Positions 8,985-56,671 of a stretch of DNA of 64,000 nucleotides are shown here, one piece after another. The notes under the pieces were generated by a model. That model was not told the DNA's origin. It saw only the letters and a list, made by a program, of their open reading frames with translations, and did not search any database. Made by a program: the position numbers and the translations under genes. The stretch comes from Nannobrachium achirus. Taxonomy: Eukaryota > Chordata > Actinopteri > Myctophiformes > Myctophidae. Position 1 is the first letter of the stretch. Every line of letters begins with the position of its first letter. Location: contig OY997642.1 of NCBI GenBank assembly GCA_963921795.1, positions 3,724,444 to 3,788,443 of the forward strand. Direction: 5' to 3'.

Positions 8985-9056
8985 CAGGAGGAAGAGAAAA
9001 CGTGGCAGTGGACTACTTCTGGTTGAGCCAGGAGAAAGATAAAATGTGGCAGCGGA
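8985..9056 (-). repeat. Tandem copies of trim55 coding end, past the stop
   Basis: Reading minus strand past the stop, the stretch with TTTCTCCTGGCTCAACCA and AGAAGTAG recurs once almost exactly and once partly (ending CTCCTGGCTCCAGA). These copies sit in the 3' UTR and are out of frame with the exon. Confidence 0.85.
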
Positions 9057-9140
9057 CTACTTCTGGTTGAGCCAGGAGAAAGAGAAAACGTGGCGGGGTC
9101 CGTCTACGTCCTCTCCACCGCCGCTGGGATCTGAGGAGGC
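9057..9140 (-). CDS. trim55: trim55 exon 10 (conserved C-terminus, stop codon)
   Basis: 84 nt after acceptor GATTTCAG, phase 0: [14 protein letters not shown], then [13 protein letters not shown] and TAG. The end is nearly the same as human TRIM55 (PARHIFSFSWLN), the strongest single clue to the gene's identity. About 40-45 bp containing the last codons and stop are repeated twice more just downstream (8985-9056). Confidence 0.92.
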   Translation of the reverse strand, partial: ASSDPSGGGEDVDGPRHVFSFSWLNQK

Positions 9141-54600: not shown

Positions 54601-56671
54601 ACATCATCATCATTATCTCTGCACTCTGCTAGGTAACGTACCGCCTGGAACATATATACATGTTATCATCATAATCTCTGCACTCTGCTAGGTAGTCCTG
54701 TCTGGAACATATATACATGTTATCATTATCTCTGCATTCTGCTAGGTAGCGTACCGCCTGAAACATATATACACATCATCATCATTATCTCTGCACTCTG
54801 CTAGGTAGTCCTGTCTGGAACATATATACATGTTATCATTATCTCTGCATTCTGCTAGGTAGCGTACCGCCTGAAACATATATACACATTATTATCATTA
54901 TCTCTGCACTCTGCTAGGTAACGTACCGCCTGAAACATATAAACACATCATCATCATTATCTCTGCACTCTGCTAGGTAGTCCTGTCTGGAACATATATA
55001 CACATTATCATCATTATCTCTGCACTCTGCTAGGTAACGTACCGCCTGAAACATATATACACATCATCATCATTATCTCTGCACTCTGCTAGGTAGTCCT
55101 GTCTGAAACATGTATACACATAATATCATCATTATCTCTGCACTCTGCTAGGTAGTACTGTCTGAAACAAACCAGCACATTATCACAATATCTCTGCATT
55201 CTGCTAGGTCAAGGGTGCCCAAAAGGTAGATGGTGATCTACCAGTAGATCAACAAGGGTGTGCAGGTAGACCACATGACATGCCTCTAAAAATGTATAAT
55301 TAAAATACAAAAATAATATGTCAATATGACATCAAGAAGGGCCTGTCAGCTCCCTTCATGGCTTCTAAAGTAGGCAAACCTCCAATGCAATACTTTGTTC
55401 AAGAGTCAGTAGCATTACAAAGAACCCCAAAACCTACCACTTCCATACATAATGGGATGAAGACATTTCCCCCAGTATTTCCCATTTATTTCCCCCTTAC
55501 AGTAAGTGTGTTTGTCTAAAATGTAACGCCAGTGCTGCTATTCCAAAGCCCCCCTCAGGCCCTCAGCTAAAACATTTTGGATGGGTAGATCATGTGAGCT
55601 AGTCATCTTAAAAGTAGATCTCACGTCAAAACAGTGTGGGCAGTGGGCACCCCCTGTGCTACCCCCCCTGTGCTACCCTCCATGTGTCCGTCAAGGATTT
55701 CAGCCACTCCTGGAAGTTCTGGCGTTTCCGCGAGGCGGGTCTTAACTCAATCCTGGTGGGTTTAGGAAACACGCAAATATTCAACCCGATTTCCAGGACT
55801 ATTTAACAATAATTCAGCTCAGTAACAAGTCGCTTACTCCTATGCACAATGCCCAAAGACAGGCAGTGTACGCCAGTGGTTCTGAGACTAACCCAAAATA
55901 ATCATATTTGAACTGGGGACCCCGGCACCCTGACGAGCACTAAGAGTAGAGGAATTTTGAATAACACGGTTTTATTGTGAAAATGGCCGATCTACATGCT
56001 CAGTAGATCTGCTATTTTCACAATTTCTGCCTCTATTATGTGACAATTTGGCCAATTTGTCATTTCAGAGTTATTAACAAAATCAATTAGCGCCTCCTCT
56101 GGTCGAATGTTGCATACTGTGACAGTATGCAGCGACGGTTGAGGGTCTATGGGGCTTCATTCGACCAGAGGAGGCGCTAATGCTGCCATTCCGGCTGCAA
56201 CTTCCAGGCTTGTAAACATTAGACTGGCTGACAAAACTAGCGATTTACAATTTCGGGAAAAGTGTTTTCTACCTAAAAGTTGGAAGCGTTCTCCCCCCCA
56301 CCGAGACATCTTTATAGGACCTCATCTCGGAGAACAACAGTATGCAGCGACAGGTGAAGTTCTATATGGGGCTAGGCGTAATACTGTATCTTACCAGCAG
56401 GGTGGAGTATAGACCACCTGGGGGTTGGGGTGTAGTACTGTATCTTACCAGCAGGGCAGAGTAGACCACCTGGGGGTTTGGGTGTAATACTGTATCTTAC
56501 CAGCAGGGCGGAGTAGACCACCTGGGGGTTTGGGTGGTCCAGGAACAGGATGAGTCCGGGCAGACAGCCCTGGTCCTGTACGATGGCCCGTCGGTTCATA
56601 GGGTCTGCAGCCAGGTCCCTGAGCTGGTTGACCACCGCTAGGGCGTCGGGTTCCCCGCCACCGCCGCTCAT
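42428..56671 (-). CDS. armc1: armc1, whole gene (6 coding exons)
   Basis: Six minus-strand exons (56671-56501, 53478-53387, 52254-52068, 46770-46654, 45696-45622, 42619-42428) join to 834 nt, 277 aa plus TGA, all GT-AG with matching phases. The protein matches human ARMC1 (282 aa) end to end, from [18 protein letters not shown] to the C-terminus [12 protein letters not shown]. The N-terminal half is armadillo-like helices. The middle ([12 protein letters not shown] to IRSDLKAE) looks like a ferredoxin-like heavy-metal-associated fold without a CxxC metal site. ARMC1 is reported at the mitochondrial outer membrane with MICOS/MIB partners and affects mitochondrial distribution. Teleosts may also carry an armc1-like paralogue; I cannot separate the two. 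Introns hold large exon-edge minisatellites. Confidence 0.95.
42663..42733. repeat. AGATCT palindrome, ~34-bp stem
   Basis: AAATAGCAGATCTACAAGC..CACAGCGCGGCAC, centre CGA, then inverse with two mismatches. In armc1 intron 5. Confidence 0.92.
43600..44063. mobile_element. TTAA-flanked element (CTCTCCTACTGCC), copy 1
   Basis: TTAA at 43596-43599 and 44064-44067; ~95% match to 47727-48180. Short inverted ends CTCT.CC.AC. Its long open frame is not conserved protein. Confidence 0.75.
44199..44271. repeat. AGATCT palindrome, perfect 35-bp stem, 3-nt loop
   Basis: Left arm 44199-44233 and right arm 44237-44271 are exact inverses around CGA. Stem core AGCAGATCTACAAGCTCACA, then GCGCGGCAC. Confidence 0.97.
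44610..44717 (+). mobile_element. Truncated tRNA-like SINE head
   Basis: GTCGCCGGTTCGATTCCCGA (B-box), then CCTTTGCCGCATGTC.., a start common in fish SINEs. Confidence 0.55.
44718..45500. repeat. 60-bp minisatellite (about 13 copies)
   Basis: Unit AGCTCTATATTGTGACAGTA + ATCATTGCTATAGAGTGTTT + GTTCAGTAACAGTGTTAAAT. In armc1 intron 5, with no exon sequence in the unit. Confidence 0.95.
45622..45696 (-). CDS. armc1: armc1 exon 5
   Basis: 75 nt, 25 codons: [18 protein letters not shown] and KGENGEE, matching human ASAIASTKVMKAQQVVK. The acceptor is GCATGCAG and the donor GAG|GTCAGT. Fifteen bases spanning the donor recur with one change 25 bp into the intron (45589-45603). Confidence 0.92.
45871..45987. 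repeat. (CA)n microsatellite
   Basis: About 58 CA repeats, preceded by a CGCGCGCG run. Confidence 0.98.
46014..46466. mobile_element. TTAA-target MITE (AGGACAACTTTG ends), copy 2
   Basis: TTAA at 46010-46013 and 46467-46470; relative of 34801-35267. Confidence 0.87.
46486..46612 (+). mobile_element. SINE 3' half
   Basis: CCTAGTTGCTCCTGATGAGC, core GCCTTGCATGGTTTCC, tail TTGGATAAAGGCGCTTTATG. Lacks the tRNA head. Confidence 0.7.
46654..46770 (-). CDS. armc1: armc1 exon 4
   Basis: 117 nt, 39 codons: [34 protein letters not shown] and DLKAE. The acceptor is TTCTTCAG|GG and the donor GAG|GTGAGG. A 22-bp near-copy of the exon start lies 61 bp upstream of it, in intron 3 (46809-46830). Confidence 0.94.
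46771..46832 (-). repeat. Exon-edge duplication, armc1 exon 4 acceptor (one extra copy)
   Basis: 22 bases at 46809-46830 match 46748-46769 in the exon with one change (GTCGCAGGAC.CTGTGTGAGG). The offset is 61 bp. Confidence 0.85.
47280..49058. mobile_element. hAT-like element (TAGGGGTGG.CGATAC ends), copy 1
   Basis: Ends TAGGGGTGGACGATACTGG / TATCGCCCACCCCTA. Same element as 59881-61271 but carries the extra TTAA element at 47727-48180. Flanks do not match, so it may have been rearranged. Confidence 0.8.
47727..48180. mobile_element. TTAA-flanked element, copy 2, nested in hAT
   Basis: TTAA at 47723-47726 and 48181-48184. Absent from the matching place (about 60332) in the sister hAT copy. 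Confidence 0.82.
49066..52067. repeat. Exon-edge minisatellite, armc1 exon 3 donor, 54-bp unit
   Basis: About 35 units in two blocks (49066-50110 and 51199-52067), split by a 1088-bp hAT element. Minus-strand units contain GACTCT|GTGAGTT, the exon 3 edge and donor. The unit touching the exon is shortened. Units vary at CTCACAGAG/CTAACAGAG and AACAACAGG/AACACCATGG. Confidence 0.93.
50111..51198. mobile_element. hAT-like element inside the armc1 minisatellite
   Basis: Starts TAGGGTTGGAGGCGGTAAC and ends CCGCCCCAGGCCTA, with a perfect 8-bp target duplication CTGTTCAG (50103-50110 and 51199-51206) lying in a minisatellite unit. It contains a ~120-bp palindrome (50340-50462) and one AGATCT hairpin (50909-50969). 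Non-autonomous; no transposase seen. Confidence 0.88.
52068..52254 (-). CDS. armc1: armc1 exon 3
   Basis: 187 nt: [19 protein letters not shown], a variable [16 protein letters not shown], then [16 protein letters not shown] and [12 protein letters not shown], ending in phase 0. The acceptor sits directly against a CA microsatellite (52258-52348). The donor GACTCT|GTGAGTT is the seed of the 3-kb minisatellite filling intron 3. Confidence 0.94.
52258..52348. repeat. (CA)n microsatellite at armc1 exon 3 acceptor
   Basis: CA repeats begin about four bases from the exon; on the minus strand this is a GT run just before TGCAG. Confidence 0.97.
52349..53386. other. armc1 intron 2, mostly unassigned
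   Basis: Contains an AGATCT palindrome at 52818-52884 (stem reaching GCCAAAAA/TTTTTGGC) and hAT-like ends near 52735 and 53130 (GGGGTCTTCAACAGGGGG / TGTTGAAGACCCCTG). Confidence 0.6.
53387..53478 (-). CDS. armc1: armc1 exon 2
   Basis: 92 nt: [18 protein letters not shown], then [12 protein letters not shown] plus AA. The acceptor is GTTCCAG|GCGG and the donor AGAA|GTGAGT. Its first 28 bases with the acceptor are the parent of the minisatellite immediately upstream (53479-55207). Confidence 0.94.
53479..55207. repeat. Exon-edge minisatellite, armc1 exon 2 acceptor, 56-bp unit
   Basis: About 31 units upstream of exon 2. On the minus strand each has GTTCCAG|GCGGTACGCTA and continues through 28 exon bases to TGCAGAG. 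Units therefore carry a 3' splice site and the codons for AVRYLAECR. Several units are shortened or carry TAGTCCTGTCTGG in place of the GTACCGCC stretch. Confidence 0.95.
55208..55645. mobile_element. hAT-like element (GGGTGCCCAAAAGGTAGAT)
   Basis: Decayed, inverted relative of 12860-13563 without its nested foldback. Confidence 0.65.
55730..56086. mobile_element. hAT fragments in armc1 intron 1
   Basis: 55730-55775 repeats the GGCGGGTCTTAACTCAATCC half of the palindrome at 50340. 55780-56086 matches the interior of 7993-8504, with a shortened AGATCT palindrome (55978-56020). Confidence 0.6.
56087..56180. mobile_element. 94-bp mini inverted-repeat element
   Basis: Perfect 23-bp inverted ends (TTAGCGCCTCCTCTGGTCGA and inverse). 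Confidence 0.75.
56395..56500 (-). repeat. Exon-edge duplication, armc1 exon 1 donor (two extra copies)
   Basis: Two tandem copies (periods 52 and 54 bp) of the last ~37 exon 1 bases with the donor CTG|GTAAGATAC. All three donors look equally strong. Use of the second or third would shift the frame. Confidence 0.95.
56501..56671 (-). CDS. armc1: armc1 exon 1 (start codon)
   Basis: 171 nt, aa 1-57: [17 protein letters not shown], then [18 protein letters not shown] and the end [12 protein letters not shown]. The donor is CTG|GTAAGA. Two more copies of the last ~37 exon bases plus donor follow in the intron, 52 and 106 bp downstream. The first donor is chosen because it joins in phase 0 to AVRYLAEC in exon 2, as in human. 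Confidence 0.94.

Follow-up and report, generated by a model that had tools for sequence, protein, structure and literature searches.

Why should the exon edges of two neighboring genes recur as tandem repeats running into their own introns? The question is raised by trim55a (hereafter trim55) and armc1 in a 64,000-nucleotide stretch of the genome of the myctophid fish Nannobrachium achirus (GenBank assembly GCA_963921795.1, contig OY997642.1, positions 3,724,444 to 3,788,443 of the forward strand; hereafter the window). Tandem copies of an exon edge together with its flank are present at nine of the 28 splice edges of these genes (7/14 donors and 2/14 acceptors), as well as at the stop-codon end of trim55, and the units contain 6 to 36 exonic bases (Table 1). 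An earlier note, made from the sequence alone, had named eight splice edges and one coding end; all nine are present, the donor of armc1 exon 5 is additional, and donor and acceptor sides are both affected in unrelated sequences, as had been stated. The note was also right that four of the arrays are large, and its count of 31-36 units is replaced by 32 (trim55 exon 5), 39 (trim55 exon 2), 37 (armc1 exon 3), and 32 (armc1 exon 2). The reading we favor, and to which we give about even chances, is that these are mirage minisatellites: edge-spanning tandem duplications that would survive since only the exon-proximal splice site is needed.

Ungapped self-comparison of the whole window at lags of 12-300 bases gave 1085 segments; 418 were dropped as simple repeats, and 42 clusters were left. 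As a control, 20 dinucleotide shuffles were compared at lags of 12-150, and in three of them a single segment reached the threshold of 14. In armc1, clusters touch the donors of exons 1 and 5 and the acceptors of exons 2 and 4; in trim55, they touch the donors of exons 4, 5, and 8 and the stop end. The arrays of armc1 exon 3 and trim55 exon 2 were recognized through their unit sequence, the former having an internal gap in its first copy and the latter an insertion before the array. Because of an intervening transposon, 482 bp separate trim55 exon 2 from the start of its array, and the match at armc1 exon 3 covers just six exonic bases and needs the gap within the first copy. The weakest case is the donor of armc1 exon 5 (score 15.0, against a maximum of 14.5 in the 20 shuffles), the copy of which is degraded, as is the acceptor in the additional copy at armc1 exon 4. 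By eye, a dispersed repeat sits among the trim55 exon 8 copies.

A probe test was applied to all 28 splice edges, with 100 shuffled introns for each, the nearest 25 bp excluded, and the trim55 exon 10 acceptor placed one base off. Seven edges have a junction-spanning copy unmatched by any shuffle, and at armc1 exon 4 the unmatched copy is confined to the exon side. The donor of armc1 exon 5 did not pass (13/100 shuffles) because its copy lies in the excluded 25 bp. Matches that do not span the junction, arising from simple repeats or flank, were obtained at four edges (trim55 exon 6 donor and armc1 exon 3 acceptor, 0/100 each; trim55 exon 7 donor, 3/100; trim55 exon 5 acceptor, 5/100); the remaining 15 edges gave no match, at least 13 of the 100 shuffles being equally good.

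The arrays also tend to resemble the edges of the intron in which they lie. In a comparison of tandem-repeat consensus units with splice edges, for eight of 12 intron-array rows the best match is an edge of the same intron, ahead of all 26 edges of other introns, and for four it is not; the eight comprise the near-edge array of trim55 intron 7 and six edge arrays, one of which takes up two rows, while armc1 exons 4 and 5 and trim55 exon 8, which offer no unit, stand outside this test. Of the intergenic control arrays, 7/10 score 20 or less against any edge. There is some circularity in this test for edges that are themselves among only two or three copies, which is not so for trim55 exon 2 or the distal block of armc1 exon 3.

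Placement was assessed by putting clusters at random in their own intron with a reach of up to 40 bp into the exon. Rows with lags above 150 were dropped (42 to 38), and removal of three exon 9, one stop-end, and 10 intergenic rows left 24. With blind placement, which counts trim55 exon 2 and armc1 exon 3 as misses, seven of these 24 intron clusters reach a splice edge, where chance would give 0.70 (P = 2.5e-6); after hand-joining of the two split arrays, the figures are 9/22 and 0.69 (P = 4.8e-9). A figure of 9/20, used below, omits the clusters at 11827-11932 and 21602-21729, which have a common 40-bp unit, adjoin dispersed copies, and look transposon-internal. From the background array density, which is alike in intron (13 in 34.4 kb) and intergenic sequence (10 in 26.9 kb; 0.38 per kb pooled), 0.43 hits would be expected at 28 edges; nine were seen, an excess of about 20-fold. 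All of these tests assume present-day intron lengths and draw on a single window, chosen as striking. Against uniform placement in present-day introns, the claim that edges are hit too often for ordinary minisatellites holds; it is not secure against short ancestral introns (150-200 bp), which would give a similar count, although a near-edge control speaks against them.

Growth of an array is most readily followed at trim55 exon 2, where 1254 bp are duplicated in tandem, with one mismatch in 1273 bp compared. From about position 26489, this array contains a second copy of the exon end and the transposon, and at one site the exon's own base occurs in 2/39 units, namely the exon copy and the duplicated copy. 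Unequal homologous exchange between an array unit and the end of the exon would produce such a duplication; alternatively, the assembly may be falsely duplicated here. Most unit positions are invariant, and in the trim55 exon 5 array this is true of all 30. In the two large armc1 arrays the ends are more diverged than the interior: the outermost units score 0.76 and 0.85 versus 0.991 inside at exon 3, and 0.77 and 0.91 versus 0.949 at exon 2. At two duplicated trim55 edges the encoded residues are unlike those of all seven relatives aligned (FII versus F-x-K at 11178-11190; MMK versus MYK at 27709-27743), and these changes may reflect conversion from array copies.

Two of the large arrays are associated with transposon insertions. 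The 8-bp target duplications presumably fit hAT elements, a candidate label. The insertion at trim55 exon 2 starts TAGGGCA and finishes TGCCCTA, its ends being alike at 11/12 positions by eye; a scripted comparison of both elements' ends, in which the ends were placed one or two bases off, found little likeness. Parts of the trim55 exon 2 insertion have relatives elsewhere in the window. The exon 2 donor GTAGGG (27700-27708) appears to be completed by the element, from an exon-side G and the element's first T, and without the insertion exon 2 would run straight into an array unit. In these two clear cases the arrays are evidently older than the transposons. The 34.4 kb of intron includes no less than 9.7 kb of dispersed repeat, as judged from matches inside the window only, together with another 10.2 kb of simple repeats and arrays; thus, the introns have grown greatly. 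Edge-derived array accounts for about 6.9 of 34.3 kb, or about 20% of the intron sequence of both genes.

The four large arrays contain 136 alternative units, of which five were left out since the computed position lacked GT/AG or was uncovered; all 131 tested lead to a premature stop (trim55 exon 5, 31; armc1 exon 3, 35; trim55 exon 2, 36; armc1 exon 2, 29). The array copies must therefore be ignored or their transcripts lost, and the edge copies should be silent. Alternative copies as a source of protein variants are rejected on the same 131/131 stops.

Judged by sequence organization, the trim55 and armc1 arrays are of the same kind as the mirages of amphioxus, for which the founding paper is reportedly Canestro 2002; the earlier note did not draw this parallel. 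Passages in two accounts describe mirages as minisatellite-like tandem duplications that cross an exon-intron boundary, whether at a 5′ or a 3′ edge, and have units of 10-160 bp, at Adh3, the globins BflGb6 and BflGb9, TnC, and PGBD5 (PMC3087553; PMC3902484). The same passages report that the BflGb6 array is homogenized inside and distinct at its end, with splice dinucleotides in many copies, and that mirages show somatic instability together with undisturbed splicing (PMC3087553; PMC3902484). The fish units likewise span exon-intron boundaries at donors and acceptors and keep AG or GT in the four large arrays; diverged array ends as in BflGb6 are found at armc1 exons 2 and 3, unlike trim55 exons 2 and 5. 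The fish case differs from the amphioxus one in being a bony fish, in having 9/28 edges of two genes and a coding end affected, in reaching 39 units, and in having transposons at two arrays; furthermore, instability and undisturbed splicing are known for the amphioxus mirages as described, whereas the fish arrays are known from one sequence. Among matches listed in the open-access literature, mirages appear for amphioxus alone, and there was no report of them from a fish. A fish with this many edges affected offers a vertebrate with obtainable RNA in which to ask how the spliceosome chooses a single site among more than 30 that are nearly identical, and its arrays are a test ground for the lengthening of introns from their own edges and for exon borders as mutational hot spots.

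A short tandem duplication crossing an intron-exon boundary is also described, in part of a further report (PMC4974935). By comparison with the duplication as described there, the fish copies lengthen existing introns, none being evident as new, and 4/7 copied donors do not read AG-GT across the junction. The suggested resemblance to intron gain by AGGT duplication accordingly finds little to match in the window, where by eye AG-GT is read by only three of the seven (trim55 exon 2, trim55 exon 5, and armc1 exon 5).

Under the favored reading, that of mirage minisatellites, small tandem duplications with units of 24-75 bp would arise throughout a repeat-rich region, probably by fill-in repair of staggered breaks or by replication slippage. 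Fill-in by Pol alpha-primase at breaks with 3′ overhangs is, in part of one report, a source of small tandem duplications (PMC8355091); as described there, it would be a plausible seed for the fish arrays, the break itself leaving no trace in the window. Duplications would mostly be purged within coding exons, except in frame in the long trim55 tail, and tolerated at exon edges and in introns, as the locations of the arrays suggest. Some arrays would then reach 30-40 units via unequal homologous exchange with the exon end as one repeat, a step for which the sequence at trim55 exon 2 is the basis, and transposons would enter or adjoin arrays and lengthen the introns further, as seen at two of them. 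The concentration at edges would follow if many duplications date from introns of about 100-200 bp, in which a 50-bp unit would often reach the exon: the modeled chance of spanning an edge is 0.44 in a 150-bp intron and 0.35 in a 200-bp intron, and 9/20 was observed.

Several points weigh against the mirage reading in this form. Only two arrays have their start inside an intron and no more than 100 bp from its edge, compared with nine that span an edge (P = 0.00039; 0.063 if three arrays with 10 or fewer shared exon bases are counted as near-edge). Short ancestral introns would predict more near-edge arrays than this (P = 0.14 for 100 bp, 0.0135 for 150 bp, and 0.0019 for 200 bp). Intron that is neither array nor repeat recognizable within the window still amounts to 14.5 kb, about 1 kb for each intron, and at that length 9/20 edge arrays would be very unlikely (P = 5.8e-6). 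The ends of the large trim55 arrays (exons 2 and 5) are not more diverged than the interior, the silence of the copies is a prediction from reading frames rather than from RNA, and the window was selected because it is striking.

A local mutational process at exon borders, in which pausing, nicks, or repair at exon-intron transitions seeds arrays, had been put forward in the earlier note; it is not established here, and we regard it as possible and rather doubtful. The approximately 20-fold edge excess and the scarcity of arrays just inside the introns (within 100 bp) speak for it, the latter also counting against the short-intron model, by which a similar number of edge arrays is obtained with no border process. 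Donors and acceptors alone (7 vs. 2) do not differ significantly (P = 0.10), and a donor-side bias (11 vs. 2, P = 0.022) appears when four more arrays, all on the donor side and no farther than 200 bp from an exon, are included, a choice made post hoc. Specificity for splice sites is not established: none is required for duplication, since the trim55 exon 9 coding arrays and the stop end are duplicated too. Nor did the proposed R-loop link find support among eight units (all but those of armc1 exon 4 and the stop end), which by a simple composition measure have sense-strand GC skews of -0.67 to +0.22, one with a G run; none of the eight folds into an unusually good hairpin (z = -1.9 to +0.5, mononucleotide shuffles), and by eye there is no common motif. 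The wider proposition, that a border process makes splice junctions into minisatellites genome-wide, as a main route of intron growth and the vertebrate counterpart of the amphioxus phenomenon, is tentative, and we would not expect it to hold.

It is very unlikely that intron minisatellites merely abut exons by chance, in a minisatellite-rich genome and a window chosen for it. Ordinary intronic minisatellites have like unit sizes, homogenization, and unequal exchange, and such an account draws on the 10.2 of 34.4 kb of intron already occupied by arrays and simple repeats and on the fact that one window was looked at; the fish units, however, include exon ends, up to 36 exonic bases per unit, and the placement probabilities, blind or joined, are far too small. 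Selection for the copies, as additional splice sites or exon-edge enhancers aiding splicing, is highly improbable. GT or AG is intact in every covered unit (trim55 exon 5, 32/32; trim55 exon 2, 39/39; armc1 exon 3, 36/36; armc1 exon 2, 32/32), but this is no sign of selection because most other unit bases are equally invariant, so that homogenization accounts for it, and every alternative site tested gives a stop. Least credible is an assembly artifact, in which the assembler would have stacked haplotypes or inflated the repeats; the single mismatch of the 1254-bp duplication would fit it, and against it stand ten unrelated sequences, variants common to units in patterns, the diverged two- and three-copy edges, and the transposons that lie within or next to arrays and are flanked by target duplications.

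Exon limits were set by tblastn with human proteins, direct reading of the minus strand, a microexon search (which placed a 23-base exon of trim55 at 14268-14246), a junction check, and comparison with fish proteins. RING and B-box domains are present in trim55. Exon joins are gap-free in every relative at 11/14 junctions (alignment to 11 chosen fish proteins of 240 listed); among the trim55 joins, 2/7 relatives aligned show a gap or an additional residue at exon 8/9, 3/7 show small gaps at exon 2/3, and exon 9/10 is too diverged for judgement. The best armc1 protein identity is 86%, to Polymixia lowei (among the best 120 of 732 matches). With sequences of crh, dnajc5b, and mtfr1, tblastn gave no convincing match in the window (best E 0.41; untranslated exons were not sought), and only two multi-exon genes were therefore usable for the edge tests.

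Table 1. Coordinates in the window of gene models, duplicated exon edges, and associated insertions.
Feature	Position	Strand	Description
armc1 exon 1 donor	56375..56536	minus	52-bp unit x3; 36 exonic + 16 intronic bases
armc1 exon 2 acceptor	53451..55209	minus	32 units of ~56 bp; 28 intronic + 28 exonic; AG 32/32
armc1 exon 3 donor array, exon-proximal block	51199..52073	minus	54-bp unit; 6 exonic bases shared
armc1 exon 3 donor array, distal block	49059..50110	minus	54-bp unit as in proximal block; 37 units over both
armc1 exon 4 acceptor	46748..46830	minus	one additional copy of exon bases 2-23, 61-bp lag
armc1 exon 5 donor	45583..45626	minus	two copies, 24-bp lag
trim55 exon 2 donor array	25013..27226	minus	49-bp unit (35 exonic + 14 intronic); 39 units including exon copy
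First copy of 1254-bp tandem duplication	26471..27743	minus	begins where exon 2 and array unit become alike
trim55 exon 4 donor	19938..20098	minus	75-bp copies x2; 12 exonic bases
trim55 exon 5 donor array	17650..18632	minus	32 units of 30 bp; 7 exonic bases; GT 32/32
trim55 exon 8 donor	11019..11193	minus	three diverged copies; lags 59, 67, 126
trim55 stop-codon end	8981..9094	minus	44-bp unit, 2.6 copies
Near-edge duplication, trim55 intron 7	14159..14237	minus	39 bp, begins 8 bp inside intron; without exon sequence
hAT-like insertion splitting armc1 exon 3 array (candidate)	50111..51198	minus	8-bp target duplication CTGAACAG on both sides, 8/8 alike (by eye)
hAT-like insertion between trim55 exon 2 and array (candidate)	27228..27707	minus	target duplication (C/T)TAGCAGG, 7/8 alike (by eye)
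trim55a coding region, 10 exons	9058..31852	minus	tblastn, minus-strand reading, microexon search, junction check, protein alignment
trim55a exons 1-5	31852-31730, 27881-27709, 20650-20473, 20182-20087, 18754-18624	minus	
trim55a exons 6-10	15741-15639, 14268-14246, 11302-11178, 10481-9634, 9140-9058	minus	
armc1 coding region, 6 exons	42428..56671	minus	tblastn, direct reading, junction check, protein alignment
armc1 exons 1-6	56671-56501, 53478-53387, 52254-52068, 46770-46654, 45696-45622, 42619-42428	minus	

Repeats are also found away from the splice edges. Exon 9 of trim55 (9634-10481) contains three coding arrays, whose units of 57, 39, and 45 bp are each divisible by three, and the trim55 protein is 627 aa long, against a median of 433.5 and a maximum of 615 among 120 relatives listed. 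An array in trim55 intron 2 (23140-24445; 41-bp unit, about 31 copies) is partly self-complementary by eye, and its own exon edges are not its best match. A record of armc1 from Acipenser sinensis (P0001), marked unverified, has the exon 3 segment present twice. At 62472-63038, a 189-aa open frame with 18-bp repeats has no Pfam match. Large intergenic minisatellites lie at 907-2398, 40270-40864, and 57415-57957, with units of 28, 29, and 48 bp, and thus the region is generally minisatellite-rich.

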